Positions 2,520 to 25,268 of a DNA stretch of 64,000 nt are shown piece by piece; position 1 is the stretch's first letter, and every line of letters begins with the position of its first letter. The notes beneath the pieces were generated by a model. That model did no database searches. It was given only the letters and a program-made list of their open reading frames with translations, and was not told the origin of the DNA. The stretch lies in contig NZ_QJJZ01000002.1 of the NCBI RefSeq assembly GCF_003201775.1, forward strand, positions 62,001 through 126,000, in the 5' to 3' direction. The DNA comes from Arenibacter sp. ARW7G5Y1 (GTDB lineage: Bacteria > Bacteroidota > Bacteroidia > Flavobacteriales > Flavobacteriaceae). Position numbers and translations under genes: made by a program.

Positions 2520-2533
2520 TACAATCGATTGCA
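2520..2533. promoter_or_regulatory. LacI-type operator upstream of the GH28 operon
   Basis: TACAATCGATTGCA, a near-perfect palindrome centred on CG and one of five copies of the TRYAATCGATTRYA motif in this window. It lies only 14 nt before the GH28 start codon at 2548, just after an AT-rich TATATTAG stretch at 2512-2519 that could be a -7 box. Binding there would block initiation or early elongation. Assignment to the LacI protein at 19939 is inferred from family binding mode (even-length palindrome with central CG) and co-location. Confidence 0.8.
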
Positions 2534-2547
2534 TAAATCTTAATGTT

Positions 2548-3978
2548 ATGAATGTCAGCCTTCGCTTTTTTCTAAATACATCACTCATTATTCTGTTTTT
2601 AGGTTCTGTTGCCACTGCCTGTAAGGAGGCACCAAAAGAGCAAAAGGAGGTTGTGGATGCATTTGCCGCTGCCGATAGGATAATTAAGGATATAGTAGTG
2701 CCTCAATTTCCTGATAGGGATTTTAATATTGTCGATTTTGGTGCCGTAGCAGATGGCGGTACAGATAATACCCAGGCCTTTAAATTGGCCATTGAGAGTT
2801 GTAATAAAGAAGGCGGAGGTAAGGTGATTGTACCGGAAGGAAGTTTTTTAACCGGGCCAATTCACTTGAAAAGTAATGTGAACCTGCACTTGGAGGAAGG
2901 TGCCGTAGTTTTGTTTAGTAAGGATTCCAAAGCGTATTTACCCGTTGTACATACCTCTTACGAAGGGGTGGAGATCATGAATTATTCACCGTTGATTTAC
3001 GCCTATAAACAAAAGAATATCGCTGTAACCGGGAAGGGAGTTTTTAATGGACAGGCAAGCAATACTAATTGGTGGCCATGGTGTGGAGCGGAAAGATATG
3101 GGCATATGGATGGGGAACCGCAACAAAAGGATGGGCATAACTTGCCAAGACTGCGTAAAATGAATGAAGAAGCAACGCCGGTTTCAGAACGTTTGTTTGG
3201 GGAAGGTTACCAATTACGCCCTAGCTTCTTTCAACCTTTTGAGTGTGAAGACATCCTAGTTAAAGGCGTAACCTTCACCAATGCCCCATTTTGGGTTTTG
3301 CATCCCATAAAATGCAACAATGTTACGGTTGATGGTGTAACGGTGAAAAGCCATGGCCCAAACAATGATGGATGTGACCCTGAGTATTCCAAAAATGTGC
3401 ACATTACCAATTGTGTTTTCGATACAGGGGATGATTGTATTGCAATCAAATCCGGTAGAAACGATGAAGGAAGAAGGGTAAATATTCCAAGCGAGAATAT
3501 TGTTATAGAAAACTGTGTAATGAAAGATGGTCATGGGGGTGTGGTCATGGGCAGCGAAATTTCCGCAGGGGTAAGGAATGTGTACGTGAGAAACTGCAAT
3601 ATGGATAGCCCAAACCTTGATAGGGCTATTCGCATAAAAACCAATACGCTAAGGGGAGGTTTTGTTGAAAATGTGTTTGTTAAAAATATCCAAGTAGGGC
3701 AGGTAAAAGAGGCGGTATTAAAAATTAATACCTACTATGCAATTTATGACAATCAAGAAGGGAGTTTTATTCCTACCATCAAGAATATACATTTAGAGGA
3801 TGTTGAGGTGGAAAACGGTGGGGAATATGGAATATTGATAAAAGGAAGGGCCGAAAGCCCAGTTGAAAACGTAACCTTGACCAATGTGAACATAAAGGGA
3901 GCTAAAACTCCATTATCTGTTGAAAATTCGCAACCTATTATATTCAAGAATACTACCATAAATGGAGTAGCGTATTAA
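2548..3978 (+). CDS. GH28 polygalacturonase (lipoprotein)
   Basis: Pectinase of glycoside hydrolase family 28, 476 residues, hydrolysing alpha-1,4-galacturonosyl bonds in homogalacturonan or rhamnogalacturonan. The N-terminus has a hydrophobic segment and lipobox ending at C25 (SVATAC). The family signatures are all present in order: N273-D274 in the NND motif, D295-D296 in DTGDDCIAIK, H329 in GHGG and RIK at 362-364. The rest forms a right-handed beta-helix. An additional NPCBM or CBM was not seen. It is first in an apparent operon with the DUF4861 protein (27-nt gap) and GH105 (3-nt gap), and is preceded by the operator at 2520. Exo versus endo action cannot be decided by eye. Confidence 0.95.
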   Translation: MNVSLRFFLNTSLIILFLGSVATACKEAPKEQKEVVDAFAAADRIIKDIVVPQFPDRDFNIVDFGAVADGGTDNTQAFKLAIESCNKEGGGKVIVPEGSFLTGPIHLKSNVNLHLEEGAVVLFSKDSKAYLPVVHTSYEGVEIMNYSPLIYAYKQKNIAVTGKGVFNGQASNTNWWPWCGAERYGHMDGEPQQKDGHNLPRLRKMNEEATPVSERLFGEGYQLRPSFFQPFECEDILVKGVTFTNAPFWVLHPIKCNNVTVDGVTVKSHGPNNDGCDPEYSKNVHITNCVFDTGDDCIAIKSGRNDEGRRVNIPSENIVIENCVMKDGHGGVVMGSEISAGVRNVYVRNCNMDSPNLDRAIRIKTNTLRGGFVENVFVKNIQVGQVKEAVLKINTYYAIYDNQEGSFIPTIKNIHLEDVEVENGGEYGILIKGRAESPVENVTLTNVNIKGAKTPLSVENSQPIIFKNTTINGVAY

Positions 3979-4005
3979 TCTATAAATAACCACAACGAAT
4001 AAATT

Positions 4006-5010
4006 ATGAAAAAAATAGCTGTACTAAGTTTTGCCCTTTTAGGTTTATTGGCCTGTAAGGATAAATCCGCCAAAAATGAAGCCATGACCCATGCTAGTAA
4101 TGTCGTAGCCGATACACCGCTTAAAACCTATGCCGAAATATCCATAAAGGAGGGCGGGGAATGGATGGGCAGAAAGTATGTGGGTGGAGATGGTTTTAGA
4201 AATGTTCAAGAATTGGAGGTTCCTAAAAATCACACTGACCATTCTTTTTTTATTCGTTACGAGGGCCCGGGATGGGAAAACAATCAAATTGGTTATAGGC
4301 TATATTTGGATTGGAGGAACGCCATAGACATTTATGGCAAGAAGGTAGATTCTTTGGTCTTGCCCTATGTAGGGCAAGATGGTTTCGATTCCTATCACGA
4401 GCCCGCAGATTGGGGACAGGATATTTTGAAGGCCGGAAAATCCATGGGTATAGGCGGTTATGGTAGATTGGTAAATGACACGGTGGCCCATTTTAGAAAT
4501 GTGGACAATACTTCTGTACAAATTGAAAATACGGAGAGTAACTCTACGGTGTATATTGACTACAAGGGTTGGGAAACGGGTAATGAAAGTATTGATTTGG
4601 ATGCCACATTGTCCATTTTTAAGGAAGACAGGTACACACTTGCAACATTGACCCCGTCCAAAGCCATTTCAGGTATTTGTACTGGGATAGTGAAATTCCA
4701 GGATATTGCCCTAAAGAAAAAAGAAGGGATAAAGTGGGGGTATATAGCAACATATGGTGCCCAGACATTAGTGAATGACACCGATAAATTGGGGATGGCT
4801 ATTTTTTATAGGATCGATCAAGTTGCCGAACAGAAAGAGGGAATCAATGATCATCTTGTTGTATTTAAACCAACCACAGATAAAATCGCCTACTATTTGC
4901 TTGGGGCATGGGAACAAGAACCCAATGGCATTAAAGATGAGGCATCTTTCATTTTGGATTTGGACAAAAAATTGGAAAGGCTAAACACTACTAATTCACT
5001 AAACTTATAA
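4006..5010 (+). CDS. DUF4861 lipoprotein
   Basis: Exported protein of 334 residues with lipobox LLGLLAC (C17). The sequence fits DUF4861, a beta-rich family commonly found beside GH28 and GH105 in pectin loci; characteristic stretches are DHSFFIRYEGPGWEN near 80 and YRLYLDWRNAIDIYGK near 100. No catalytic site is established to my knowledge. The trough of aromatic residues and the position between polygalacturonase and unsaturated uronyl hydrolase suggest pectin oligosaccharide binding or modification, which is inference. It sits 27 nt after GH28 and 3 nt before GH105, so co-transcription is very likely. Confidence 0.8.
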   Translation: MKKIAVLSFALLGLLACKDKSAKNEAMTHASNVVADTPLKTYAEISIKEGGEWMGRKYVGGDGFRNVQELEVPKNHTDHSFFIRYEGPGWENNQIGYRLYLDWRNAIDIYGKKVDSLVLPYVGQDGFDSYHEPADWGQDILKAGKSMGIGGYGRLVNDTVAHFRNVDNTSVQIENTESNSTVYIDYKGWETGNESIDLDATLSIFKEDRYTLATLTPSKAISGICTGIVKFQDIALKKKEGIKWGYIATYGAQTLVNDTDKLGMAIFYRIDQVAEQKEGINDHLVVFKPTTDKIAYYLLGAWEQEPNGIKDEASFILDLDKKLERLNTTNSLNL

Positions 5011-5013
5011 AGC

Positions 5014-6261
5014 ATGAAAAATTTAAGAACTTACATTTCTATTTGTGTATTGACTATTGGTTTATCTGTTACTTCGTGTAAGGAGACCAAAGGGGAATCC
5101 AAACAAGTAACAGAGGACACTACTGCCTCGATAATTGTTCCTGAAAACCTTAAGTGGTCCGAAAGAATGCTGATGTCAGAAATTGAGCGTTTTCCGGATC
5201 CAACCAAACTGGATTTTGTAGATAAGCCAAGATGGAGCTATACTAATGGACTGGTGCTATCTGCCGCCATAAAAGTGTATGGGGAAACCAAGAAGCAAGA
5301 ATATTACGATTATATCTATGCTTACGCCAATGATCTAATTGACAGTACCGGAACCATAAAAACGTATTCTTTGGAAGACCAGAATCTAGATATGATAAAG
5401 TCTGGGGATGTTTTATTGTACCTATATGATAAAACCAAGGAAGAAAGGTTTTTAAAGGCCATGCAGATTTTAAGTAGCCAAATGGATTCCCAGCCCAGAA
5501 CATCGGATGGAGGTTTTTGGCACAAGAAGCGTTATCCCTATCAAATGTGGTTGGACGGCTTGTATATGGCAGAACCTTTTCATGCCCACTACACTAAATT
5601 ATTCGAAAAAGATGGGGAGGAGGCAAAAAAAATCTATGATGACATTTTACTACAGTTCGATTTGATCCAAAAGCATTGCCATGATGAAAAAACGGGTCTT
5701 TTGTACCATGGATGGGATGAAAGTAGGGAACAAAAATGGGCAGATAAGAAAACTGGAACCTCACCTCATTTTTGGTCCAGGGCCATGGGTTGGTATGGCA
5801 TGGCACTGGTAGATGTTTTGGACTTCTTACCAAAGGATCACCCAGGACGTGAAAGAATTATTACCTACCTAAATCAATTTGCCGAAGCCGTAACAAAGTA
5901 TCAGGATACCTCAGGATTGTGGTATCAAGTATTGGATCAGGGCGATCGGGAGGGCAATTACTTGGAGGCTTCCGGTAGCTCAATGTTCACCTATACCTTT
6001 GCCAAGGGTGCCCATAAGGGATATTTGCCGGAAAAGTACTTGGGTATTGCGGAAAAGGCATACTCGGGAATATTGGAGAATTTAATATCTATTGAGGATA
6101 ACGGTGTTGTAAACCTCAATAAAGTATGTGGAGTGGCCGGTTTGGGAGGCGACCCATACAGGGATGGATCCTATGAATATTATGTAAATGAAATTATTCG
6201 CTCCAACGACCCAAAGGGAACCGGTCCGTTTATATTGGCCAGTTTAGAATTGAATAAATAA
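5014..6261 (+). CDS. GH105 unsaturated rhamnogalacturonyl hydrolase (lipoprotein)
   Basis: Glycoside hydrolase of family 105, 415 residues, removing the 4,5-unsaturated uronic acid from the non-reducing end of lyase-generated oligosaccharides. A lipobox ends at C22 (LSVTSC). The (alpha/alpha)6 barrel markers are H170 in GGFWHKKRYPYQ and D181 in MWLDGLYMAEPF (matching the catalytic Asp of YteR-like enzymes), and SPHFWSRAMGWYGMALVD near 250-267. Third gene of the GH28-DUF4861-GH105 run. It differs strongly from the second GH105 at 14906, so the two probably handle different products. Confidence 0.93.
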   Translation: MKNLRTYISICVLTIGLSVTSCKETKGESKQVTEDTTASIIVPENLKWSERMLMSEIERFPDPTKLDFVDKPRWSYTNGLVLSAAIKVYGETKKQEYYDYIYAYANDLIDSTGTIKTYSLEDQNLDMIKSGDVLLYLYDKTKEERFLKAMQILSSQMDSQPRTSDGGFWHKKRYPYQMWLDGLYMAEPFHAHYTKLFEKDGEEAKKIYDDILLQFDLIQKHCHDEKTGLLYHGWDESREQKWADKKTGTSPHFWSRAMGWYGMALVDVLDFLPKDHPGRERIITYLNQFAEAVTKYQDTSGLWYQVLDQGDREGNYLEASGSSMFTYTFAKGAHKGYLPEKYLGIAEKAYSGILENLISIEDNGVVNLNKVCGVAGLGGDPYRDGSYEYYVNEIIRSNDPKGTGPFILASLELNK

Positions 6262-6276
6262 ACTGATAAGGAAATA

Positions 6277-7628: not shown

Positions 7629-7645
7629 GGGATTCCTTTAAAGGA

Positions 7646-9226: not shown

Positions 9227-9362
9227 AGAAGGTATCAGTGATAATGTTCTTCATATAAAAATGCAACAAATTCGGTACTTATAAAAGGATTTTCCAAAAA
9301 TTTGGACAGGTTCTTCTGTAATGATAGGAGGGTATAATGGTCCCCTTTGTTTTATAAATAAA

Positions 9363-9388: not shown

Positions 9389-9421
9389 AACAACTTTGTT
9401 ATGTTATGGATTTAGAATAGG

Positions 9422-10984
9422 TTAATATCCCGGGTTTTGTACCAGTTTCGGATTCTTGTCCAAGGCTGTCTGGGGCAATGGGAAAATGGTATTATGGTCA
9501 TCAAGCTCATAGAAAGTAAGGTTGGGCGAGTATTGTGCTATTCTGTCCAACAAGGCCTGATCCGGGGTAAATACATCCCCATTGTCATCGTACATGGTAG
9601 GAACCGTATAAGTGGCGTAAGCCGTCTTATTGGACAGTAATTTGCCCTGTCTTACCAATTCCTCATAGTCTTGTCCTTCAAAGCAGAGTTCTTTTCTAAA
9701 TTCGAGATAAATGGCCTCCCTAAGTTCTTCCTTGGTCAAACCTGATAAGTCGTCCAGGCCTGCTCTATCCCGTACCCTGTTCACATATTGGTAGGCATTT
9801 CCTGGACCCTCATCTTCGTTTGTAGCTTCGGCCGCGGTAAGAAGTACGTCGGCAAATCGCAACACCTTGATGTTGTAGGCCATACCATCCCCAACCTTGT
9901 TTTCTGGGTCCCTGTATTTATTTATATGTGGTAGCGGGTAGGTGTTTTCCTGCCATTGTACTAGTTCGCCTCCACCGTTCAGTTTAGGGAATTCTGTTAG
10001 CCATGTAGCCGCTTTTCTTTTATCGTTTTCCTCAAATTGATTGAACCACCAGAGGCTACCGATTATTGTTCCCCATTGTCCGGGCCCATAACCATTGTTA
10101 TTGGGTTCAAAATTGTTGCCCAAAGCATGGCCTTGGGGAGCAACCCCATTGTATTGAACCTCAAATACACTTTCTATGTTATTGTCCACATCGCCATTGC
10201 CCATCCACCAATTGTCTTTTGGGTCTTCCATAAGGTCAAGGCCACTGGGAGAATTTATTACAGCTATGGCATTGGTTTTGGCATTGGCCCAATCTTTTTG
10301 ATAAAGTTGCACTTTGGCCAAAAGCCCTTGTGCAGCTTCTTTGGATGCCCTTCCAACATTGTTGCCGGAATAGGAGGATAGGAGGGGCAATGCGCCCATG
10401 GCCTCCGTTAGGTCTTGGACAATTTGAGTATATACTTCGGCCTCTGTATTACGTGCCACCTGTAACTCTGTAATATCGGAAGACTTGGTTTCGGTTAAAA
10501 TTAAGGGTACACCTCCCCATCTTCGTACCATATTGAAATAGGTCAATGCCCTTAAAAATTTGGCTTCCCCTATGATTCTTGATTTAAGGTTTTCATCCAT
10601 TTCAATATCCGGAACATGGTCAATAACGGCATTGGCTCGGTTAACAGCTTGCCATACTGCTCCCCAAATCGCAATATTATAGCGCGAGCTTTTTACCATT
10701 CCGGCATCGTTCAACTGTATAATTTCGGCCCTATCCGAAGTAGTACCAAGACGGGTAAAGACCCCATCTGATGCCAATGCACTGGACGTCATCCAATATC
10801 TGGAATAATAGTCGTTTACCCTCAAAGCCGCATAGGCACCGTTTACTGCGGATTCGGCATCTTGAGCGGTTTGATAAAAGTTTACCGGCGAAATGGAATC
10901 CTTTGGAATCTCATCGAGATAATCAGAGCATGCGCTTGCAAGGATTGCAATGCATAACAGTATTAAGAATTTTAAATTTTTCAT
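9422..10984 (-). CDS. SusD-family glycan-binding lipoprotein (pectin locus)
   Basis: Outer-membrane surface lipoprotein of 520 residues, the lid/binding partner of SusC. Start chosen at 10984, nine codons inside the longest frame: this gives signal peptide MKNLKFLILL... with lipobox LASAC (C19) and avoids overlap with the SusC stop at 11001. SusD hallmarks are the N-terminal DYLDEIPKDSISP, FLRALTYFNMVRRWGGVPL near 150 with TPR-like helices, and a C-terminal SusD/RagB region ending with NPKLVQNPGY. It follows SusC by 16 nt. Ligand is presumably pectin-derived oligogalacturonides or rhamnogalacturonan fragments, from context. Confidence 0.95.
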   Translation of the reverse strand: MKNLKFLILLCIAILASACSDYLDEIPKDSISPVNFYQTAQDAESAVNGAYAALRVNDYYSRYWMTSSALASDGVFTRLGTTSDRAEIIQLNDAGMVKSSRYNIAIWGAVWQAVNRANAVIDHVPDIEMDENLKSRIIGEAKFLRALTYFNMVRRWGGVPLILTETKSSDITELQVARNTEAEVYTQIVQDLTEAMGALPLLSSYSGNNVGRASKEAAQGLLAKVQLYQKDWANAKTNAIAVINSPSGLDLMEDPKDNWWMGNGDVDNNIESVFEVQYNGVAPQGHALGNNFEPNNNGYGPGQWGTIIGSLWWFNQFEENDKRKAATWLTEFPKLNGGGELVQWQENTYPLPHINKYRDPENKVGDGMAYNIKVLRFADVLLTAAEATNEDEGPGNAYQYVNRVRDRAGLDDLSGLTKEELREAIYLEFRKELCFEGQDYEELVRQGKLLSNKTAYATYTVPTMYDDNGDVFTPDQALLDRIAQYSPNLTFYELDDHNTIFPLPQTALDKNPKLVQNPGY

Positions 10985-11000
10985 ATCGTTTATTTTTTTA

Positions 11001-14000
11001 TTAGAAGTCAAGTTTCAGTCCCATTAAAACGGTCTTGGCCAATGGGTAGGAACTGATGTCCCATCCAAAGGAGCCCCTTACATTGGCACGCCCATTGGTA
11101 TCCGGGTTATAGCCTTTGTAATCTGTTATTGTGAACAAGTTCTGACCGGTAACATAGATTGATGCATTGGCATTTCCCAGTAGTCCTTTGGGCAACTCGT
11201 AGTTAAGGGTAATTTCCTTCATCCTTAGATAAGAAGCGTCTTCCAAGAAAAAGTCAGAATCTCCAAGACTTGCAGAACCACCAATGGAAGGAGGGGTTTG
11301 TATTGGAGTGGGCCATAGGGCATCAACATTGCTTGGAGTCCAATAATCCCCAACTTCCGCCAATACATTCTGACCTCTGGTAACAGTTGAATTAAACCTT
11401 CTCATGGAATTGTAAACAAGTCCACCCTTCTGTCCTTGTAAAAAGAGCCTAAGTTCCAAGCTTTTATAAGATATGGTCGAGTTTATTCCATAGGTAAAAT
11501 CGGCATGCGGACTTCCGAGCACCGTACGGTCATCGGTATCTATTTCCCCGTCGTTGTTCACATCCACATATCTCGTCATCCCGGGAATAACGCCTGGTCT
11601 CAAGGATTGTTCCGCGTCGGCTTCCGCCTGCGAACGATATAGTCCATCTGTTTTATATCCATAGAATACGCCTACAGGTTCTCCAACAGTTACATAAGAC
11701 CTTGGAGTGGAACCGGCAAAAGTAGGTTGTGCTATTTCATAGGATTGATCACCTTCTCCCACTTCCGCGGCAGATCCCAAGGAGGTAATTTTATTTTTGT
11801 TTTGGGAAATGTTAAATCCAAGGTCCCACTTAAAGTCATCATTTTGTACTACAGCTCCGTTCATGGATAGTTCCCAGCCAATATTTTCCATCTCTCCCAG
11901 ATTCTGTACGGAAGGGTCCAAAATACCGGATGTTTCGGGAAGATTAACCTCTAACAATAGGTCTTCGGTCTTTTTTACATAATAATCAAAAGAGGTATTA
12001 AACCTACCTCTAAGCAGGGAGGCATCCAGACCAACATTGGTTTGGCTGGTGATTTCCCATGTTAAGCCCGGTACGGCTACACGTAAGGGGGCAAATCCAC
12101 TTACAATGGTACCATCCCCAAAATTATAGGGATCTGCCTGTAATAGGGCCAAAGACCTATAAGTGGGCAATTCTTGGTTACCAACTTGTCCCCATCCAAT
12201 CCTTAGTTTTAGATTGTCGAAGAAATCCGATTCGGCCATAAAAGCTTCGTTGGAAATCCTCCAAGCTCCTGCTACAGAGGGGAAAAATGCCCATTTATTA
12301 CCTTCTGCAAATTTGGAAGAGCCATCCCGACGTCCTGTTGCGGTAATCAGATAACGATCCTTATAGTTATAGTTGATCCTTCCAAGGAATGACATAATAC
12401 TAAATTCGGCATACTGTGAATCTACAGCTGGGGCCACTGATCCGGCACCCAGGTCATAAGGTCCTGTAATATCGGTGGCAAACCCACTAGCCGTAATCAA
12501 CCTGTATTCTTCGGTTTCCTTTTGTACTGTAAAACCGGCCAACGCCTGTAAATTATGGTCCCCAAAATCTTTATTGTAGTTTAAGGTATTTTCATTTAAT
12601 AGGGAGGTTCTATTTACAGAGCTGACATTGGCGGTATTGATAGGGCTGACAGCATCGAAGAGTGACGTTCTATATACATGCCTGTCACGGTTCTCCAAGT
12701 CGGCCCCAACACTTACCCTAAATTTTAAATCTTCCAGTAAGTCATATTCCCCGAACAGGGAGCCTAGAATTCTAGTGTTGACACTTTCATCAGAAAATTC
12801 ATTGATAAAGGCTAAAGGGTTTCGGGTTCCCTGCGCATCAGGAACGGTCGAGGGCATGTCGTTCAGAACGGAGTAGGAGCCATCAGGTTGGTAGATTGGC
12901 AGTACAGGTGCCATTTGCAAGGCAGTGGCGGTTATACTATTGGTTGCCTCTCCTTCTGTTTCGGCGGCATTGTTTATGGATCTGGATACATTCAGGGAAT
13001 TACCGAATTTTAATCGGTCACTGGCATTGATATCCAGGTTTACCCTTAAGGAATATCTGGTAAAGTCCGATCCTTTTATAATTCCTTCCTGATCAAAAAC
13101 AGCTCCTGATAAACTGTATTGTATGGATTCGGAACCTCCGTTTATCCCAATTTGGTGATTCTGTATCAAGGCACTCCTGAAGATCAAATCCTGCCAATCC
13201 GTATCGTAGGCTGGTGCGTTGCCAAATACTACAGGATCCGGAGTGGGACTATTGGCAGCAGCCTCGTTGTATATGTTTTGATATTGCTCGGCATTCATCA
13301 TATCAATTTTGTTGCTGATGGTCTGTATACCTGCATAACCGTTATAGGATATTTTTGGCAAGCCTTTCTTACCTCTTTTAGTTGTGATCAGAATAACACC
13401 ATTGGCACCCCTAACCCCGTATATTGCGGCAGCCGAGGCATCTTTAAGAATCTCTATCGATTCAATATCGGACGGATTTAGTGCAGCAAGCGGATTTTGG
13501 TTAACCGTGTAGTCTGTACCCGTACTACTATCTAGTCCCCTACCTGCGCTGGTAGCAAATTGCGACTGTCCGGTTACCGGAAACCCATCGATTACATATA
13601 AGGGTTCACTTCCATTCAAAATAGAAGTAGTACCCCTAATTTTTACACTGATTCCACCTCCGGGAGCACCGGAATTGTTCGTTATGTTTACACCGGCTAC
13701 CCTACCTTGTAAGCCTTGCTCCATGGAGGTAATGGGAGCCGCGTTGAGCTCTTCCGAAGAAAGTGACCCAACCGATCCTGTAAGATCACTTTTTTTCTGT
13801 GTTCCATAACCTACAACAACCACTTCCTCGAGCTGGCTGGCATCTTCCAATAAATCTACATTTATGGTGGATTGCCCACCTACCTCAATTTCTTGGGTCT
13901 TAAAACCAATATATCTAAAGACTAAAATGTCATTGTTGCTTGCATCAATGGTGTAATTACCATCGAAATCGGTTGCGGTACCCGTTGTGGTATTCTTAAT

Positions 14001-14245: not shown

Positions 14246-14259
14246 TACAATCGATTGTA
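14246..14259. promoter_or_regulatory. LacI-type operator, susC-proximal
   Basis: TACAATCGATTGTA is a perfect palindrome (extends to 16 bp, 14245-14260) about 100 bp before the susC start. With the copy at 14336 the centre-to-centre distance is 90 bp, compatible with looping by a tetrameric or paired regulator. Confidence 0.85.
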
Positions 14260-14335: not shown

Positions 14336-14349
14336 TGCAATCGATTGTA
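14336..14349. promoter_or_regulatory. LacI-type operator, second copy in the susC/GH105 region
   Basis: TGCAATCGATTGTA matches the TRYAATCGATTRYA consensus. It could serve the divergent GH105-esterase/GH43 unit as well as susCD, though it is 556 nt from the GH105 start. Confidence 0.82.
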
Positions 14350-14722
14350 CTAAAGTAATTAAAATATCATATCTTACAAAGAATTTGGAAAAAAATGAAG
14401 GTACTTTTTGAGGATTAGACAATTATCCTCCCGTAAAAATATCATTATAAAGGGCTAAAAGTCTTATGTCAATTGGGGTTTTTGGTTTTTATGACAGCCC
14501 TAAGGTTTTAAGATTTACTTTTCTTTTTTTCGATTTTAAAAGATGTTAATTGATAAAAAACTTAATTATTCACATAATTCATGGTCACCAAGGATATTAG
14601 GGAATAATAAATCATCTGTTCCGGACAGATTGCGTTACACTGTAATTTCCTAAAATAATGTATTGATCCTGAGACTTGCATAAAAATGTTAAAAGTAGAT
14701 AATAGGGCTTTATAGTAATGAG

Positions 14723-16030: not shown

Positions 16031-17847
16031 TTCGGAAAAGAGGAGTAAAATTATGTTTTTATGTAATAATTGCATTTTTTTCTTTTGCAGAGGAAGTAAG
16101 TATATATGCCCAGGAAGTGCTACCAGTTTGGCCTAATGGAGTGCCAAATTCGTTACTGAATAAGGAATATAACGAGGTATTGACTTATGATGAAGCCAAT
16201 GAAATTAGAGGGGTAAGTAAGGTGACCAACTCTAGCTTGACCGTTTATTTGGCAGAGGGGAACAAATCCAATGGTGCTGCCGTAGTTATTTGTCCCGGAG
16301 GGGGATATTCGCATTTAGCTATCAATAAGGAGGGGTATAAGGTTGCCAAATGGTTCAATAGTATTGGAGTTTCAGCCTTCGTTTTAAAATACAGACTGCC
16401 CAATGATTTGATTATGAACGACAAATCCGTAGGACCTTTACAAGATGCACAGGAAGCTATAAGATTGGTGAGGCGTAATGCGGTTCAGTGGAAGATAAAT
16501 CCGAATAAAATTGGGATTATGGGCTTTTCGGCAGGCGGTCATCTTGCCTCCACGCTTTCCACCCATTACAATGAAAAAGTGTATGATTCTGGGCCCCTTA
16601 GTGCCCGACCGGATTTTTCCATTTTGATCTATCCGGTTATTTCCATGGAAGATGGGGTTACCCACCATGGTTCCAAAAGAAATTTGCTGGGAGAGAAGGT
16701 CAGAGCTGACTTAGTTGATAAATTCTCCAATGAAAAGCAAATAGATGCCAACACCCCTCCTACTTTTCTGATCCATGCTGTGGATGATAAGGCTGTTCCC
16801 GTTGAAAATAGTATTAATTACTTGCTAAGGCTAAAAGAGAATAATGTACCTGCCGAATTACATATTTATGAAAAAGGGGGGCATGGTTTCGGATTGGGCA
16901 GGGAAGGTACCAGTACTTATTGGCCCGAGTCCCTCAAAACCTGGTTGAGTGCCAATGATTTTATATTGGATGAATCGGTGCTTTTATTTTCATATTTTAA
17001 GGGAAACGGAGAGGATGGTTTACACTTGGCTTACAGTAATGACGGTTATAAGTGGAGAGCTCTAAAAAATGACACCTCATTCTTGACTCCAGAAGTTGGG
17101 AAAGATTCTTTAATGAGGGATCCATGTATTATTAAAGGTGGAGACGGCAATTATCATATGGTCTGGACAGTAAGTTGGACCGATAAAGGAATTGGATATG
17201 CTTCTTCCAAAGACTTGATCAATTGGTCCAAACAGAAATTTATTCCGGTAATGAAACACGAAAAAGGAACCCGAAATACCTGGGCTCCAGAGATAACCTA
17301 TGATGAAGATACGAAGGTGTATATGATTTATTGGGCGTCCACCATTAGTGGGCATTATCCGGAAACCCAATCCAAAGAGGAAAATGGGTATAATCATAGA
17401 ATGTATTACACCACTACCCAGGATTTTAAATCCTTTGGTAAAACACAATTATTGTATGAACCTGGTTTTAATGTAATTGATGCGCATATTTTAAAACACG
17501 ACAATAAATATGTAATGTTCTTAAAAGATGAAACGAAGGAACCGGCTGAAAAAAATATTAAAATAGCCTATAGTGATAATTTAACAGGACCTTATTCCAA
17601 AGCCAGTGAGCCCATTACCGGGGACTATTGGGCCGAGGGTCCAACGGCCATTCAAGTGGATGGCCAATGGATGGTATATTTTGATAAGTACATGGATGGA
17701 AAGTACGGTGCGGTACGTTCCAAAGATTTAAAAAATTGGAACGATGTATCGGACAAAATTGATTTTCCTAAGGGATCAAGACATGGAAGTGTTTTTAGAA
17801 TTTCCTTAGATGAGTTTAAAGCAATTCAGAAGAAGTTAGGGGAGTAG
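16027..17847 (+). CDS. Two-domain enzyme: alpha/beta-hydrolase esterase fused to a GH43-like propeller
   Basis: 606 residues. After a signal peptide (about 1-29), residues 35-310 form an alpha/beta-hydrolase esterase: CPGGGYSHLA (oxyanion, 89-98), nucleophile S168 in GFSAGGH, acid DD at 253-254, H286 in GGHGFGLG. Residues 320-606 form a GH43-type five-bladed propeller with the three expected acids: D365 (RDPCII), D485 (VIDAHILK) and E537 (WAEGPTA). One chain could thus deacylate and remove arabinose, galactose or a related side-chain sugar. The esterase half closely resembles the separate protein at 38934. It overlaps GH105 by 4 nt and converges with the CE12 gene. Substrates are inferred from locus context. 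Confidence 0.9.
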   Translation: MIRKRGVKLCFYVIIAFFSFAEEVSIYAQEVLPVWPNGVPNSLLNKEYNEVLTYDEANEIRGVSKVTNSSLTVYLAEGNKSNGAAVVICPGGGYSHLAINKEGYKVAKWFNSIGVSAFVLKYRLPNDLIMNDKSVGPLQDAQEAIRLVRRNAVQWKINPNKIGIMGFSAGGHLASTLSTHYNEKVYDSGPLSARPDFSILIYPVISMEDGVTHHGSKRNLLGEKVRADLVDKFSNEKQIDANTPPTFLIHAVDDKAVPVENSINYLLRLKENNVPAELHIYEKGGHGFGLGREGTSTYWPESLKTWLSANDFILDESVLLFSYFKGNGEDGLHLAYSNDGYKWRALKNDTSFLTPEVGKDSLMRDPCIIKGGDGNYHMVWTVSWTDKGIGYASSKDLINWSKQKFIPVMKHEKGTRNTWAPEITYDEDTKVYMIYWASTISGHYPETQSKEENGYNHRMYYTTTQDFKSFGKTQLLYEPGFNVIDAHILKHDNKYVMFLKDETKEPAEKNIKIAYSDNLTGPYSKASEPITGDYWAEGPTAIQVDGQWMVYFDKYMDGKYGAVRSKDLKNWNDVSDKIDFPKGSRHGSVFRISLDEFKAIQKKLGE

Positions 17848-17869
17848 TTCCATTCTACTATATATGCAT

Positions 17870-18625
17870 TTAGAATTTTATATGTTGCTTTTCCAATTCG
17901 TCAAGGGCTAACTGGGCAACCAAGGTTGCTCCAATTACCGATAGGTGGGTATTGTCCACAATGCCATTTGGCCTGTGGGGATTTTCTCCTGGGGCAAAAT
18001 GAAGATGGAGTTTTTTGGACCCTTCAACACCATATGATATTTCCATTTGTTCTGTCAATAATTGTAAGTCAATAAATGGCACTTTTAAATCCTTGGCCAC
18101 CATTCGTGTAACTAAGGGGTAGGCACCATGAGTGTCTATCAACACCCCATTTTCGTTAAAATTTCGTCTTGTTATAGAGCTAAAAAGAATGGGAAATGCC
18201 TCTTTACTCCTAGCTTCTTTTACAAAACGTTCAAGGTTATAACGGTATTGGGTATAAGGGTTGGTATATCGCGATGAATCTTGGCGCTTTTGGTCATTAT
18301 GCCCAAATTGAATAAAAATATAGTCTTTGGGTTTCAGCGAATCCAATACTTTTTGCCAGCGTCCCTCAGCTATAAAGCTACGACTGCTCCTGCCGTTAAC
18401 AGCGTGGTTGTGTACATGCACAGATTCTCCCAATAATTCGGGAAGCATTTGTCCCCACCCACGTTCCGGATTATTTGTTGGATCGGGTTTGTTGGCCATG
18501 GTAGAATCACCGATTAGGTAAAGGCATGTTTTCTCTTGGGAGTGATCCGTTGTTTCATGCTTCTGGGCACTGACCACAACTGAAAAAACAAATAGGATCC
18601 ATTGAAATATATTTTTCATATCCAC
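17870..18625 (-). CDS. CE12 rhamnogalacturonan acetylesterase
   Basis: SGNH-type esterase of 251 residues that removes O-acetyl groups from galacturonate in rhamnogalacturonan or homogalacturonan. Signal peptide to about 20 (VVVSAQ). Block I GDSTMA carries nucleophile S41, block III is QFGHND (107-111), and block V is DNTHLSVIGA near the C-terminus with Asp and His. Start could also be M3 (18619). It lies 5 nt after the CE8 stop, so CE8 and CE12 form a de-esterification operon. The intact triad contrasts with the remnant at 6318. Confidence 0.93.
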   Translation of the reverse strand: MDMKNIFQWILFVFSVVVSAQKHETTDHSQEKTCLYLIGDSTMANKPDPTNNPERGWGQMLPELLGESVHVHNHAVNGRSSRSFIAEGRWQKVLDSLKPKDYIFIQFGHNDQKRQDSSRYTNPYTQYRYNLERFVKEARSKEAFPILFSSITRRNFNENGVLIDTHGAYPLVTRMVAKDLKVPFIDLQLLTEQMEISYGVEGSKKLHLHFAPGENPHRPNGIVDNTHLSVIGATLVAQLALDELEKQHIKF

Positions 18626-18630
18626 GTGTA

Positions 18631-19647
18631 TTAGGATTTAAAATTTAAATACCACTCCAACGGTTTATCTTGGACCTTTTCACCCAGTATATTTTTTGTG
18701 GTGTATTCTTTTGCCTGTGATTTTGTTAATTGGCGGCTCCATGAAACCCTTTGGGAGGGTTTGTATCCCGGTCCAAAACAACCGTACTCGCCATAAAAAG
18801 ATTGTTTTTCAGCCTCTGTGTTGGACCAATTGTCCCATCCTATGGGGAGAATATGTTGACCCATGTAGCAATTAATGAAAACTGTTTTGGCATGGGTTCT
18901 CCATGGTCTTCCCAAATACACTTGGTCGGTCTGTGGATCTGCGGTTAGCCTACAGTCTATGAACACATATCCGAAGTCCATTCCTCTTGGGGTGGATGCA
19001 GCGGTAATAAAGGAATTGGATTTACTATGTATGGTACATTTTTCAAAAACTACAGTAGCGTTGCCAAAAATAAAATCCGTTGTTCCTTCTATAAAACAAT
19101 TTTTGTAAAACTGTTTAAATCCCTCGCCAGAAGTATAAAGTGTATCTTGATTTCCAATTATCTTACAGTTTTCCACACGGGCTCTGTTCGCATTCACAGC
19201 AAGGGCTACTGCTTGTCCTACTGCTCCTGCCGTATTTTGAATGGTTAGGTTGCTGGCGTAGAAATCGTTGCCCTCAACAAGAAGGGTAGGAGTATGAAAA
19301 GTGCTGTTCCTGCCCAAATTAATCTTGTCAAAATAATCATCATAGGTAATAATGGTATTTTCCCGGTCCTGACCTATTAATGATATTTTGGGATTCCAGG
19401 AATATACGTTTACCTTCTCATAGTAAACGCCGTTCTTTATATGGATCAAGACTCTTTGGTCTGGATAGGCTTTGGCAGAATTAATGGCCTCTTGAATGGA
19501 AGTATAATCTCCACTACCATCTTTGGCCACGCTAATGTTATATCCTTTAAGGGATGCTGAAGTGCCTACAGGGTTGTTTTGAGCTAAAACGGATAGGTCT
19601 GCAAAGAATGTCAGAAGTAATAAAGTAAGGATAAACGAATTATTCAT
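18631..19647 (-). CDS. CE8 pectin methylesterase
   Basis: Exported beta-helix enzyme of 338 residues hydrolysing methyl esters of homogalacturonan, giving methanol and polygalacturonate for GH28. I use ATG 19647, 13 codons inside the longest frame, because the signal peptide (LLTFFADLSVLAQ) then starts the protein. Family motifs: GSGDYTSIQEAI near 45, GNQDTLY with D168, DFIFGNA with D191 and YLGRPWR with R247. The LacI-type operator at 19712 is 64 nt upstream. It heads the CE8-CE12 operon and is divergent from the LacI gene. Confidence 0.94.
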   Translation of the reverse strand: MNNSFILTLLLLTFFADLSVLAQNNPVGTSASLKGYNISVAKDGSGDYTSIQEAINSAKAYPDQRVLIHIKNGVYYEKVNVYSWNPKISLIGQDRENTIITYDDYFDKINLGRNSTFHTPTLLVEGNDFYASNLTIQNTAGAVGQAVALAVNANRARVENCKIIGNQDTLYTSGEGFKQFYKNCFIEGTTDFIFGNATVVFEKCTIHSKSNSFITAASTPRGMDFGYVFIDCRLTADPQTDQVYLGRPWRTHAKTVFINCYMGQHILPIGWDNWSNTEAEKQSFYGEYGCFGPGYKPSQRVSWSRQLTKSQAKEYTTKNILGEKVQDKPLEWYLNFKS

Positions 19648-19711
19648 AATGACTCTTATGGTCCGGTCCACAGTATCTGAAACCAAGGGATTACATTTTT
19701 CAAATCTTTAA

Positions 19712-19725
19712 TGTAATCGATTACA
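19712..19725. promoter_or_regulatory. LacI-type operator between CE8 and the LacI gene
   Basis: TGTAATCGATTACA is a perfect palindrome in the 291-nt divergent space. The location suits control of CE8-CE12 and possibly autoregulation of lacI (213 nt from its start). Confidence 0.87.
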
Positions 19726-19938
19726 CGAATATAGATAAAATATTATATCTTGTCAAGGTCGTATTTAATGATGGGATTTTTTAGGATGGTTATGGTAAAG
19801 TATATGGAATATTTGGTCCATATAATCTACATGTATTGGCTATATCCTTTAATTTTGCCCCAATTTAAATAGTAAACTAAGTTATCAATTTTCAGTGAAC
19901 ATTAGTGGTATTGTTATAAAAACCAAGTTAAATAATTC

Positions 19939-20976
19939 ATGAAAAAGAAAACGACCATATATGACATAGCGGCAAAACTTGGTCTCACTGCTGCTACAGT
20001 CTCTAGGGCCCTGAACAACAATACCAAAATTAGTTTAAATACACGGAAGCTGGTTCTGGAGACTGCCTTGGAAATGAATTATGAGCAGAACAAGTTGGCT
20101 TTGGCTTTAAAAAGCGGTAAGAGCTATAATGTTGGTGTCATTGTTCCTAGAATAGATAGTAATTTCTTTTCGTCCGTTATACGGGGTATTGAAGAAGAAT
20201 TGTACCCCAAGGGTTACCATGTTATAATCTGCCAGACCCATAATCAGGAAAATATAGAAGTCGAAAAAATAAATTCCCTTGTAAATGTACAGGTGGATGG
20301 TATTTTAATGTCTATTTCCAATGCCAATCTGGAAGAAAATAAGGGTTTTAATAAACTTCTAAAAAATAAAAATACCCCTTTGGTTTTTTTTGATAGGAAG
20401 AAAGATATTAAGGGTGTCAGTTCCGTAACCATAGATGATTTTAAAGGTGGTTATGATGCTACCCAACATTTGTTGGACCAAGGTTGTAGGCGTATAGCGC
20501 ACTTATCCAACGACCGTAAGTTTGAAATTTTTAGGAATAGGTATTTGGGATATAGGCAGGCTTTATTGGACAATGGTATTGAATTTGATGAAAGCCTGGT
20601 CATTGAGACACATAGTAGTGTTCTTGATGGTAGAAGGGCGGCACGCCTTCTTTTGGATATGGAAACCCCACCGGACGCTATTTTTTCTTCCAGTGATTTC
20701 GCTGCTTTGGGTGTTATTCAGGAAATTAAGGAAAGTGGACTACATATTCCAGAAGATATTTGTGTTGTTGGCTTTTCCAATGAGCCATTTACCAGGTTTA
20801 TGGAACTTACGACCATTACGACTGTTGATCAATATCCGTTGGAAATGGGAAGAAAGGCCGCCCAAGTTTTTTTGGAAGAAGTGGGCAATACAGAAGATGC
20901 CAAAACAACCCAGAATATAGTGCTTACCCCGGAATTGATCGTTAGGAGGTCATCTTCAAAAAAATGGAAAGGTTGA
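19939..20976 (+). CDS. LacI/GalR-family transcriptional regulator of the pectin locus
   Basis: 345 residues. The N-terminal helix-turn-helix is TIYDIAAKLGLTAATVSRAL (residues 5-24) and the hinge region LALALKSGKS is near 55-64. A periplasmic-binding-protein-like effector domain follows (YNVGVIVPRIDSNFFSSVI, DGILMSI, PDAIFSSSDFAALGVI). LacI proteins insert the hinge helix at the central CG of a palindrome, which fits the TRYAATCGATTRYA sites found before GH28, susCD, CE8 and uxaB. The effector is likely a galacturonate catabolite. An alternative is that it controls only CE8-CE12 and the sites belong to another family member elsewhere. Confidence 0.93.
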   Translation: MKKKTTIYDIAAKLGLTAATVSRALNNNTKISLNTRKLVLETALEMNYEQNKLALALKSGKSYNVGVIVPRIDSNFFSSVIRGIEEELYPKGYHVIICQTHNQENIEVEKINSLVNVQVDGILMSISNANLEENKGFNKLLKNKNTPLVFFDRKKDIKGVSSVTIDDFKGGYDATQHLLDQGCRRIAHLSNDRKFEIFRNRYLGYRQALLDNGIEFDESLVIETHSSVLDGRRAARLLLDMETPPDAIFSSSDFAALGVIQEIKESGLHIPEDICVVGFSNEPFTRFMELTTITTVDQYPLEMGRKAAQVFLEEVGNTEDAKTTQNIVLTPELIVRRSSSKKWKG

Positions 20977-21857: not shown

Positions 21858-23468
21858 TTATAAAGACACGCCTCTACGCCATGGAATAAAATCATTTTGA
21901 TTTAACAATTTTGCCTTGGTCTGAATTTTTCCACTGGCCACTTCGATTATAAAGTCCAACATTTCCCCCGCCATTTCCTCGATGGTTTTTTCACCTCGTA
22001 TTACCGCACCGGTTTCAATATCAATTATATCGGGCATTCTTTCCATTAGTTCGGTATTGGAGGAGACTTTTATAATTGGGGCAATAGGATTGCCTGTTGG
22101 TGTTCCCAGACCTGTTGTAAACAAGACAACATTGGCTCCTGAACCTACCATGGCCGTAGTGCTTTCCACATCATTTCCTGGAGTACACAAGAGGTTAAGC
22201 CCCGGCTTGGTAATGTATTCGCCATAATCCAAAACATCTTGAATGGGGGAGGTGCCTCCTTTCTTAGCGGCACCTGCAGATTTCATGGCATCGGTAATTA
22301 ATCCGTCCTTAATATTTCCTGGTGAAGGGTTCATATCAAAACCAGATCCGGCATCCACCACCGACTTTTCGTAGGCCTTCATTAACTTTAGAAACTTTTG
22401 GCCCTTATCGTCCTCAACACATCGGTTTACCAATTCCTGTTCCACACCACATAGTTCCGGAAATTCGGATAGTATGGCAGTACCATTCAAGGCTGCCAAT
22501 AAATCTGAAACGGCCCCTAAAGTGGGATTAGCCGATATCCCTGAAAATCCATCCGATCCCCCACATTCCAAGCCAACTCGTAATTTGGACAGTGGTGCCG
22601 GTTTACGTTCGGTATTATTGGCTTTTTTAATGGCTTCAAAGGACTCTTTGACAATGGTGGACAACATTTCATCCACTGTGCCCATTTGTTGTTGTTCAAA
22701 AATGAGTACAGGTTTATTTAGGTTGGGATTAATGGATTTTAAGGCATCTTTAAATACACTTATTTGGAGGTTTTGGCAACCTAAACTCAATACTGTGGCT
22801 CCTGCAACATTAGGGTTGTTTACGTAACCTGCCAGGAGTTTTGCCAAACTTTCGGAATCCTGTCTTATACCGCCACAACCTCCTGGGTGTGTAATGAACT
22901 TTACATCAATATTGTTGAACACATTGCTGGAATTAAGATCTGCCGCAGTTTCTTCTATAGTATTGTTCACCAAAGATCGCAGTAACATTTGATGTGGGTT
23001 TACTTTCTGTTGCAACAACTCCTTTTCAAAAACTTCCTTCAAAACTTCTATGTTCCTATTTTCGCAGAAAACCAAGGGAAAAAAAAGCCATACGTTTTCT
23101 GTACCAACCTGTCCGTCTTCCCGATGGTACCCTAAAAATGTTCTGTCTTTCCACTTCTCCACATTAGGGGTGGTCCAACCAATGGTGCCCGTTTTTTCAA
23201 ATACTTTTTCACTTTGGTGTTTAACATTTTCAGTAGTAAGTACATCTCCTTTTTCTATAAAACCATTGGCGCTCCCTACGAGAACACTATACATAATAAT
23301 ACGATCCCCGGATTCAAATTTTTGTAGGGCAATTTTATGCTTTGATTTTGTATCCGATACCACGGTGATTTCCTCACCTTCAAATGAAATTACTTCCCCA
23401 GCTTTTAAATCGACCAAAGCAACTGCTACGTTGTCCGTTGAATTTACCTTTATAATTTTACTTTTCAT
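21858..23468 (-). CDS. uxaA: Altronate dehydratase (UxaA, fused SAF and catalytic domains)
   Basis: 536-residue cytosolic enzyme converting D-altronate to 2-keto-3-deoxy-D-gluconate. An N-terminal SAF domain (about 1-95, KAGEVISFEGEEI) precedes the catalytic UxaA region with conserved Cys motifs HPGGCGGIRQD (near 187-197), LSLGCQN and LECGGSDGFSG, fitting the iron-dependent family. It is 34 nt after uxaB in the same direction. The later steps (KDG kinase, KDPG aldolase) and uronate isomerase UxaC are not in this window. Confidence 0.95.
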   Translation of the reverse strand: MKSKIIKVNSTDNVAVALVDLKAGEVISFEGEEITVVSDTKSKHKIALQKFESGDRIIMYSVLVGSANGFIEKGDVLTTENVKHQSEKVFEKTGTIGWTTPNVEKWKDRTFLGYHREDGQVGTENVWLFFPLVFCENRNIEVLKEVFEKELLQQKVNPHQMLLRSLVNNTIEETAADLNSSNVFNNIDVKFITHPGGCGGIRQDSESLAKLLAGYVNNPNVAGATVLSLGCQNLQISVFKDALKSINPNLNKPVLIFEQQQMGTVDEMLSTIVKESFEAIKKANNTERKPAPLSKLRVGLECGGSDGFSGISANPTLGAVSDLLAALNGTAILSEFPELCGVEQELVNRCVEDDKGQKFLKLMKAYEKSVVDAGSGFDMNPSPGNIKDGLITDAMKSAGAAKKGGTSPIQDVLDYGEYITKPGLNLLCTPGNDVESTTAMVGSGANVVLFTTGLGTPTGNPIAPIIKVSSNTELMERMPDIIDIETGAVIRGEKTIEEMAGEMLDFIIEVASGKIQTKAKLLNQNDFIPWRRGVSL

Positions 23469-23502
23469 TTTATCAACCTCTAATTAGTTTTAGTTTAATG
23501 GC

Positions 23503-24948
23503 TTAAAACCTTTTACTGTAATTGGCATACCCTACTTCAATTCCATTTGTTTCAATTTCCTCCAGGGCTAGGGCAACTGCTTCGGAGAGATTTTTAACTT
23601 GCGTTAAATCCTCCCCCCAATAGGATTTGTTGCCCAAGGTTTTATTGGCGATTTCCAAATAATTATTGGATTCCCATATTTTGGCAAAGGCCTCCACTAT
23701 TTCATCACTGTCATTTACGGGTAAATTTTCACCCTTCCAAGTTCCTTTGTAAAAACGTATTAGCGCAGCAAAGGAAAAAGTTAAGTTGGTAGGTATTTTT
23801 TTATGAATGTCCATATACTCCAATAAACTTGGCAGTACCCTTACCTTAAATTTTGAAATTGAATTTAAGGCAATACTGGATAAGTTATGAATAATAAAGG
23901 GATTTCTAAATCGGTCCAAAACCTCTTCCGCAAAGCTGTCGAGTTCTTCCTTGGCCATTGGTAGGGTGTGGTTTATTTCATTAAATATGGCATTGTTTAC
24001 GAATTGGCCGGTAAAGTGGTTGTCTACCGTTTGTTTAACCGTAGTATTCCCATATAAAAGGGAAAATGGTACCATGGCGGTATGCGCACCGTTTAAGATC
24101 CTTACCTTCCTAGTTCTATAGGGCTGCATATCGTTTACAATCTTAACGTCCAGATCTGTTTTGTGAAAGGGTAATTTTTCTTTTAGAGCTTCATCCCCTT
24201 CAATGACCCACAGCAGAAATGTTTCGGCAGCGACTATTAAATTGTCCTTATAGGATAGTTGGGCATTGTACTCTTCAATTTCATCCTTTGGGTACCCCGG
24301 TACTATGCGGTCTACCAAGGTGTTATGAAACGAGGAATGTGTAGTAAGCCAATTCTTAAAGTCTTCACCAAGATTCCAGTCATCGGAGTATTTTAAAATT
24401 ATTTCCTTTAAGGTGTCCGAATTATGATTTATCAGCTCACAGGGAATTATAGTTAAACCTTTACCGGGATCGCCCTTGAAGTGTTTGAAACGTTCATACA
24501 ATAGTACCGTTAATTTGGCCGGAAATGAATTCGGCGGCTGCATTTCCATTGTGTCCGTGTCAACATAGGCAATACCGGCCTCCGTAGTATTGGAAATAAT
24601 AAACTGAAGGGCCTCTTCCTTGGCTAAATTTAAGTATTCCGTGAAATTGCTGTAAGGGTCAACTCCCTTTACAATATTGGTGATAAGCTCTTTATGCTGA
24701 ATTTCCTTGCCTTTCTGAATTCCCTTTAAAAACAAGGTATAAAGTCCATCCTGCCCATTAAGCATATTTACCAAACCGCGTTCAATAGGTTGTACCACCG
24801 CTATGCCGGCATCAAAATTTCCTTCTTGGTTTAATTTTTGGAATGCATAATCCACAAATGCCCTTAGAAAATTTCCTTCTCCAAATTGTACTACCTTAAT
24901 GGGCGATGTCGATTTTAAATGGGTAACTGTTCTGTTTAATGGTTGCAT
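23503..24948 (-). CDS. uxaB: Tagaturonate reductase (UxaB)
   Basis: 481-residue NAD-dependent long-chain polyol/mannitol-dehydrogenase family member reducing D-tagaturonate to D-altronate. Rossmann entry VVQFGEGNFLRAFVDYAFQ is at about 19-37. Family residues include NHNSDTLKEI near 170, VDRIVPGYP near 215 and KVRILNGAHTAMVPF near 279, which is characteristic of this family. First gene of uxaB-uxaA, with a LacI-type operator 86 nt upstream (25034). No alternative start is needed. Confidence 0.95.
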   Translation of the reverse strand: MQPLNRTVTHLKSTSPIKVVQFGEGNFLRAFVDYAFQKLNQEGNFDAGIAVVQPIERGLVNMLNGQDGLYTLFLKGIQKGKEIQHKELITNIVKGVDPYSNFTEYLNLAKEEALQFIISNTTEAGIAYVDTDTMEMQPPNSFPAKLTVLLYERFKHFKGDPGKGLTIIPCELINHNSDTLKEIILKYSDDWNLGEDFKNWLTTHSSFHNTLVDRIVPGYPKDEIEEYNAQLSYKDNLIVAAETFLLWVIEGDEALKEKLPFHKTDLDVKIVNDMQPYRTRKVRILNGAHTAMVPFSLLYGNTTVKQTVDNHFTGQFVNNAIFNEINHTLPMAKEELDSFAEEVLDRFRNPFIIHNLSSIALNSISKFKVRVLPSLLEYMDIHKKIPTNLTFSFAALIRFYKGTWKGENLPVNDSDEIVEAFAKIWESNNYLEIANKTLGNKSYWGEDLTQVKNLSEAVALALEEIETNGIEVGYANYSKRF

Positions 24949-25268
24949 ATTATTTTTTTATTATGTTACTATGGCTTTAACGGATTACCAGGGGAAGCTC
25001 CTAAAAGCATTTTAGTTCATCCCATCATAAAAATGTAATCGATTGCACAAATGTAGTATAATTTATGTTATCTACAATTTATTTCATCTTGGTTCTGATA
25101 GATTTTTTTTGATTGAAGGTATTATGAGTCCAGTAAATAAAAGGTGTTCAGCTTCAGGCTTTTCCCAAACGCCGATTGTGTGCATGCCTTGTTGGACGCT
25201 GTTGAATTTATTCAACACCAATCTATTTGTCAGAGGCAGGCAATACCCGTTTCAAAATTAGTTCCTAT
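24949..25268. promoter_or_regulatory. 320-nt region carrying the uxaBA promoter
   Basis: Contains the operator at 25034-25047, a GTTGAAT/ATTCAAC dyad at about 25201-25216, and an open minus frame at 25084-25251 without an ATG at its start that may be gene debris. Nothing else is recognisable. Confidence 0.5.
25034..25047. promoter_or_regulatory. LacI-type operator upstream of uxaBA
   Basis: TGTAATCGATTGCA matches the shared motif and lies 86 nt before the uxaB ATG, linking uronate catabolism to the same regulator as the depolymerising enzymes. Confidence 0.83.

Follow-up and report, generated by a model that had tools for sequence, protein, structure and literature searches.

Pectin and uronate genes of Arenibacter sp. 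ARW7G5Y1 carry putative operators of two paralogous LacI-family repressors

Introduction

Is the use of pectin in a marine flavobacterium governed by one repressor, or is the task divided between related regulators? The question is raised by a stretch of 64,000 nucleotides from Arenibacter sp. ARW7G5Y1 (Flavobacteriaceae; contig NZ_QJJZ01000002.1, positions 62,001 to 126,000), in the following called the window, in which a 14-bp palindrome recurs between the genes of a pectin locus. A first-pass annotation had taken the copies for one motif read by the LacI-family protein encoded in the cluster, so that extracellular depolymerisation, import and uronate catabolism would share one switch. We arrive at a different reading, to which we assign a probability of roughly 0.8: two paralogous repressors of the LacI family, both concerned with the use of pectin and uronates, have these sites as their operators. 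LacIw, the LacI protein of the window, would read type A, TGYAATCGATTRCA, and LacIc, a second LacI encoded on contig C4 beside kduI, would read type B, TACAATCGATTGTA.

LacI-family regulons of this kind have precedents. The passages concerned of PMC3878776 and PMC4052901 predict regulons of UxaR (BT0824) and KdgR (BT0487) in Bacteroides thetaiotaomicron, and one of UxuR in Bacteroides. PMC4052901 places the three regulators in one taxon-specific branch, and PMC3878776, in the part concerned, counts a few proteins of the periplasm or the cell exterior among the members of regulons including that of KdgR.

Results and Discussion

Exact copies of the palindrome are located at pectin and uronate genes

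The five copies of the degenerate consensus TRYAATCGATTRYA at positions 2520, 14246, 14336, 19712 and 25034 are all exact, and none lies within an open reading frame (ORF) of at least 120 amino acids. The nearest start of a pectin gene is between 14 nt (2533 to the GH28 gene at 2548) and 556 nt away (14349 to 14906), and the copies at 14246 and 19712 are perfect palindromes. The rest of the window, including a second polysaccharide utilization locus (PUL), contains no further copy with zero or one mismatch; the next-best places, 37338 and 60867, have two mismatches. The observation of the first-pass annotation is confirmed.

Its proposal to scan the whole genome was followed (5,734,699 bases in 46 contigs; the window is part of contig C2 of this genome, G000). 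The scan yielded six exact copies, five within this 22.5-kb stretch and one at C4:176070. All six are located at pectin or uronate genes, and the many sites far from pectin genes that would speak against a pectin regulon were not found. The reversed pattern, which served as control for the motif scans, has no exact copy in this genome. In the 60 nearest genomes, 74 real places compare with 12 control places.

Some figures for inexact copies agree with a chance or non-regulatory repeat. At up to two mismatches, the window contains seven places, barely more than expected from shuffled sequences (mean 3.15, largest 9; 3 of 100 shuffles reach 7). The 18 additional one-mismatch places of the genome, compared with 10 control places at up to one mismatch, are near background and were rejected as extra targets. 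As the count at up to two mismatches exceeds that of the shuffles only modestly, weight was placed on the exact sites; only these were used as evidence and mismatch copies were set aside. For the exact sites, a chance origin is practically negligible: it is contradicted by the six genomic copies against none in the control, by the sites at the same genes in other genera, where their position with respect to promoter boxes is constant, and by the co-occurrence and promoter-offset counts given below.

All six exact sites, scored over 14 nt, are even palindromes centred on AATCGATT and thus possess the central CG of LacI-type operators. The relevant passage of PMC4052901 lists 1251 of 1303 LacI-family operators as even palindromes, with lengths of 16–22 nt. 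The type of site supports the proposed LacI control, and the LacI protein of the cluster is the best candidate reader of the TGYAATCGATTRCA sites, but not of all five.

The degenerate consensus merges two putative operators

The consensus TRYAATCGATTRYA unites two operators that differ at positions 2–3 of the half-site, the half-site being TGY in type A and TAC in type B. According to this rule, the five sites of the window are classified as follows; each is an exact match.

2520..2533, plus strand: hybrid operator TACAATCGATTGCA, composed of one B half and one A half, before the GH28 unit
14246..14259, minus strand: type-B operator TACAATCGATTGTA, within what is predicted to be the leader of susC
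14336..14349, minus strand: hybrid operator before susC, likewise one A and one B half, reading TACAATCGATTGCA on the susC strand
19712..19725, minus strand: type-A operator TGTAATCGATTACA before the CE8 gene, in the divergent interval between CE8 and lacI
25034..25047, minus strand: type-A operator before uxaBA, reading TGCAATCGATTACA on the uxaB strand

The distribution of the two types was determined in one sample of 395 Flavobacteriales genomes. Orthologs were accepted at E <= 1e-100 for LacIw and at E <= 1e-90 for LacIc; genome G360 was left out as a LacIc carrier, its match being its LacIw (46 versus 58 percent identity). Type A occurs in 65 genomes and LacIw likewise in 65, type B in 13 and LacIc in 8. 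Exact A sites were found in 55 of the 65 genomes with a LacIw ortholog and in 10 of the 330 without one (Fisher p 2e-46, kinship ignored). The corresponding numbers for B and LacIc are 7 of 8 and 6 of 387 (p 5e-11, kinship again ignored). No exact B site exists in the 64 genomes that have LacIw without LacIc, and no type A in the seven that have LacIc without LacIw; within this sample, LacIw and B sites are found together in the Arenibacter genome studied here only. Among the 60 nearest genomes, 15 of the 16 with a LacIc ortholog have an exact B site at most 400 nt upstream of lacIc. The assumption of a single motif is thus not supported: in relatives, TACAATCGATTGTA tracks a second LacI paralog beside kduI by both co-occurrence and gene linkage, the site at 14246 has exactly this sequence, and each of the sites at 2520 and 14336 combines one half of either type.

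In principle, LacIc or another LacI paralog could be the main regulator and LacIw could read something else; an exact operator lies beside lacIc itself, and TRYAATCGATTRYA fits that site. This is very improbable, because A sites accompany LacIw in genomes lacking LacIc, at uxaB, lacI, GH28, susC and kduI, and are absent from the LacIc-only genomes. With regard to other paralogs, only the LacIw and LacIc loci contain an exact site among the 14 LacI loci of this genome, of which about 3 kb each were scanned.

LacIw, LacIc and the genes beside them

The proposed reader of the type-A sites is encoded within the pectin cluster.

19939..20976, plus strand: LacIw, LacI-family regulator (Pfam PF00356, PF13377 and PF00532 above cut-off; co-occurrence with type A)

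LacIc contains the same LacI-family domains, with PF00356 and PF13377/PF00532 above cut-off, and is 43 percent identical to LacIw. The closest solved structures are CcpA, PurR and RbsR. The named NCBIfam LacI equivalogs (RbsR, CytR, PurR, CcpA) had to be rejected as assignments, the best scores being 221 bits at a cut-off of 382 for LacIw and 231 at 436 for LacIc. In a phylogenetic tree, the orthologs form separate clades, that of LacIw with 25 rows and support 100/100, that of LacIc with 15 rows and 92/93. Among the 12 of the 14 LacI genes of this genome that were taken in (L021 and L023 were left out), LacIw and LacIc group together with a third LacI linked to uxaC (93/92).

The sixth exact copy, at C4:176070, is of type B and lies between lacIc and a divergent kduI operon. 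The operon encodes KduI, which scores above its NCBIfam cut-off, a DUF4861 protein, and a short-chain dehydrogenase in the position of kduD, which is above the cut-off of the gluconate 5-dehydrogenase model and below those of the KduD models. That six of six sites are located at pectin or uronate genes strengthens the regulon proposal; yet the sixth site has its own LacI. LacIc and its operator are thus linked to kduI, in the way characteristic of a KdgR-type regulator. An exact B site between kduI and lacIc is also present in the loci of 14 relatives, which were picked for having the site, and in six further genomes. In other genera, additional type-B sites precede genes of tripartite ATP-independent periplasmic (TRAP) transporters in G019, G123 and G404 and GH105-like genes in G404, which fits LacIc as a repressor for the use of unsaturated oligogalacturonides.

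The gene uxaC is found elsewhere, on contig C10 (locus L158, G000:C10:148000-166000; 6838-7851 and 8895-10370), beside the third LacI paralog, which is 39 percent identical to LacIc. No exact site exists in these 18 kb. A one-mismatch copy within the adjoining lacI and a two-mismatch place upstream of that lacI were noted, and the locus was rejected as a target. The sites thus do not take in all of uronate catabolism. Our guess is that the uxaC-linked protein is a UxuR-like third regulator.

Four of the five putative operators of the window adjoin predicted promoter boxes

At 2520, 14336, 19712 and 25034, the eight bases immediately before the operator match the Bacteroidota sigma-A -7 box TAnnTTTG in five or all six fixed letters, on the strand facing the structural gene.

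2512..2519, plus strand: -7-like box TATATTAG, immediately before the GH28 operator (5 of 6 fixed letters)
14350..14357, minus strand: -7-like box TACTTTAG, abutting the susC operator, with TTTG 19 nt upstream (5 of 6)
19726..19733, minus strand: -7-like box TATATTCG, abutting the CE8 operator, with TTG 20 nt upstream (5 of 6)
25048..25055, minus strand: -7-like box TACATTTG, abutting the uxaB operator, with TTG 19 nt upstream (6 of 6)

The background frequency of such a box is 1.2 percent per position (102 of 8588, in nine intergenic stretches of the window). Counted from the end of the TTG, the box follows after 16 nt at GH28 and after 19–20 nt at the other three (susC, CE8 and uxaB). Offsets were counted at 64 sites (38 of type A, 22 of type B) from the window and from loci L016, L089-L126 and L137-L149, excluding duplicate flanks and sites about 150 bases or less from a locus end. 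A box on either strand abuts 26 of the 38 type-A sites, 17 of these boxes being perfect, whereas at most 6 of 38 sites have one at any other tested offset. In the passage concerned of PMC9723704, the box of Flavobacterium psychrophilum is located at -12 to -5. With this spacing the operator would extend from about -4 to +10, a position in which a repressor bound to it would prevent initiation; it is thus predicted to lie over the transcription start, as expected of a repressor site.

The geometry of type B is different. Thirteen of the 22 sites, a set that still includes the copies within coding sequence of L121-L123, are followed by a perfect box whose first base lies 12 nt beyond the site, and at the kduI-lacIc site this box fits the promoter of lacIc. 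No -7-like box abuts the B site at 14246. This site could act as a road-block or jointly with 14336.

The sites are retained in relatives

An exact A site precedes uxaB in all 11 Arenibacter genomes with LacIw, and lacIw itself in 10 of them; the eleventh (G011) has one mismatch there. LacIw and its operator are thus linked to uxaBA, as is typical of a UxaR-type regulator. In A. troitsensis (G013), the sites aligned to 2520 and 14336 are pure A, TGCAATCGATTGCA and TGTAATCGATTACA, respectively, the latter with an identical adjoining box and upstream flank, and the B site before susC is identical to the copy at 14246 (L089, position 14483). The pair at susC, consisting of an A or hybrid site and the conserved B site, is spaced by 90 bp here and by 87 bp in A. 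troitsensis.

Outside Arenibacter, 13 LacIw loci were inspected. In nine of them, exact A sites are located near lacI, GH28, susC, CE8 or further pectin genes; another, from Tamlana (L147), has a more distant exact A site and a one-mismatch site at lacI. The remaining three lack exact A: L138 has no site, and L145 and L146 have one-mismatch sites only. An A site precedes kduI in Yeosuana and in two Winogradskyella. Exact B is absent from all 13 loci, and L141 contains a further exact copy of the consensus, TGTAATCGATTATA, which is neither A nor B. Genomes of group g40 (e.g. G396, G266, G060) carry up to ten exact A sites each, some far from lacIw, and may have a larger LacIw regulon than Arenibacter.

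The genes of the cluster in the window are the following; they were assigned by Pfam, and UxaB by a score above its NCBIfam cut-off.

2548..6261, plus strand: GH28, DUF4861 and GH88/GH105 genes
9422..14144, minus strand: susD and susC, outer-membrane import genes
14906..17847, plus strand: GH88/GH105 gene and an esterase-GH43-like fusion
17870..19686, minus strand: GDSL esterase (CE12 in the first-pass annotation; PF13472) and pectinesterase CE8 (PF01095)
21858..24948, minus strand: uxaB (tagaturonate reductase) and uxaA (altronate dehydratase-like, by its GD_AH domains)

The constant core in the 11 LacIw-bearing Arenibacter genomes consists of lacIw, uxaB and the type-A sites. Between a histidine-kinase gene and lacIw, this genome and that of A. 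troitsensis carry the full PUL, the latter with extra DNA between susC and GH105; G002 and G017 carry parts of it. No match to the GH28, susCD or CE8 genes of the PUL was found in the stretches retrieved from seven other Arenibacter genomes. The PUL is flanked by a histidine kinase and a LytTR response regulator (window 611-2331). In six of the seven genomes without PUL genes, the kinase gene is close to lacIw, which suggests that the PUL is a variable insert between these two genes. It is to this variable part that the B and hybrid sites of the window belong.

Two further features of the window were noted. The second PUL (43503-60986) comprises GH141-like, GH95 and NPCBM genes, susCD, an AraC regulator and a FecR/extracytoplasmic-function sigma factor pair, and contains no operator copy. 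A 1029-aa ORF at 32635-35724 fuses APH-type phosphotransferase, M23 peptidase and class-III aminotransferase domains.

Does LacIw read all five sites?

In the model of the first-pass annotation, LacIw alone binds the five sites of the window, and the difference between A and B is tolerated variation. The location of lacIw inside the cluster agrees with it, as do the hybrids at 2520 and 14336, whose promoter geometry is still that of type A and whose aligned counterparts in A. troitsensis are pure A, and a hybrid before kduI in G015, a genome with LacIw and no LacIc at E 1e-100. We nevertheless consider this model unlikely: exact B is missing from every LacIw-only genome of the large sample, the site that separates kduI from the second lacI is of this type, and the exact B site at 14246 is kept in A. 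troitsensis and lacks an abutting box.

The assignment of A to LacIw and of B to LacIc has its own difficulties. In the 395-genome sample, ten LacIw genomes have no exact A site, ten genomes with A, nine of them with a single copy, have no LacIw, and six genomes with B have no LacIc. The LacIc genome G413 lacks exact B and has two one-mismatch copies upstream of its lacIc. In the 60-genome set, G007 possesses LacIc and no site, and G015, G022, G037 and G052 possess exact B without LacIc, the copy in G015 overlapping a susC-like match. Because of common ancestry among the 38 A sites, the 22 B sites and the 395 genomes, the p values given above overstate the association. The position of the recognition helix that aligns with residue 18 in LacI numbering, one of the residues with a part in the choice of bases, is Ala in 30 of 30 LacIw loci and Ser in 22 of 22 LacIc loci; Ser is also present in the paralogs L028, L029 and L031 of this genome, and therefore residue 18 alone does not set the choice of operator. 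Finally, the assignment of single hybrid sites is uncertain in view of the above-mentioned site before kduI in G015, and a hybrid also occurs in G008, which has LacIc only; to judge from size and arrangement, the gene beside it has an apparent counterpart in G012 that is GH88-like and carries a pure B site.

These last two cases suggest, at the level of sequence, that each repressor tolerates one foreign half-site. Cross-reading in a genome with both repressors is therefore plausible but unproven.

G052, one of the six genomes of the large sample with B and no LacIc, has a cluster (L171, G052:C83:1-19000) in which four sites, exact B or hybrid, accompany an alpha-L-rhamnosidase-like gene, a PL14 lyase and a GH94; they are perhaps under another LacI with nearly the same operator. 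Further copies of type B, found at susC-like genes of G003, G006 and G011 (L121-L123), were rejected as operators: there, TACAATCGATTGTA encodes IQSIVQG within the coding sequence and is probably incidental. Their occurrence in three species calls for caution with motif scans that ignore coding DNA.

A model with two repressors

From the arrangement of sites and genes we infer binding and repression by both proteins, their effectors, and a reading of the hybrid sites by both. In the absence of pectin, LacIw and LacIc would sit on their operators. LacIw would block transcription from the A sites at uxaBA and CE8 and from the A/B hybrids at GH28 and susC, until products of the galacturonate branch, presumably a pathway intermediate, release it from uxaBA, CE8/GDSL, GH28 and susCD. 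LacIc, bound to B sites, would control kduI, its own gene and, via the leader site 14246, susCD; products of the unsaturated branch would release it from kduI, lacIc and the susC leader. Accepting this scheme, uxaBA and CE8 would belong to LacIw, and susCD and perhaps GH28 may be shared by both. The single LacI switch of the first-pass annotation is thus borne out in part.

A more far-reaching and rather doubtful possibility is that the PUL promoters integrate the two sister repressors. The susC promoter, with an A-derived site over the start and a B site about 90 bp downstream, might act as an AND gate, and the hybrids at susC and GH28 might be read by both proteins or by a LacIw-LacIc heterodimer. 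If this were true, import and depolymerisation would be fully open only with both saturated (galacturonate-branch) and unsaturated (kduI-branch) products, and each catabolic branch would still answer to its own repressor.

Relation to known systems

Like UxaR and KdgR of Bacteroides, as described in the passages concerned, LacIw and LacIc are predicted LacI-family regulators of galacturonate/glucuronate and 2-keto-3-deoxygluconate catabolism in Bacteroidota. Unlike in those systems, the host belongs to the Flavobacteriaceae, the two operators are told apart at half-site positions 2-3, and hybrid and paired sites occur at PUL promoters. The pectin PUL of Gramella flava JLT2011 (PMC5306329) is similar in its uxaA/uxaB, kduI/kduD, susCD and polygalacturonase genes and in a regulator for which a figure legend gives the name exuR; the passages concerned contain no operator or regulon reconstruction. 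Dual control of one susCD-type operon was predicted for the arabinan operon of B. thetaiotaomicron, by AraR and a hybrid two-component system (HTCS), according to the relevant part of PMC3878776; those regulators belong to unrelated families, whereas here two LacI paralogs have nearly the same operator. Our literature search found no paper on these operators in Flavobacteriia. The only literal match to a site sequence came from a Staphylococcus CcpA paper.

LacI control of uronate use is already predicted in Bacteroides; it is the mixed operators that deserve experimental work. The locus offers a testable two-repressor scheme of pectin use for marine flavobacteria, with a fixed geometry of operator and promoter, and the half-site rule (TGY versus TAC) predicts which repressor reads which promoter. 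It would also be a natural case of duplicated repressors that have diverged by one or two operator bases and may still share promoters.

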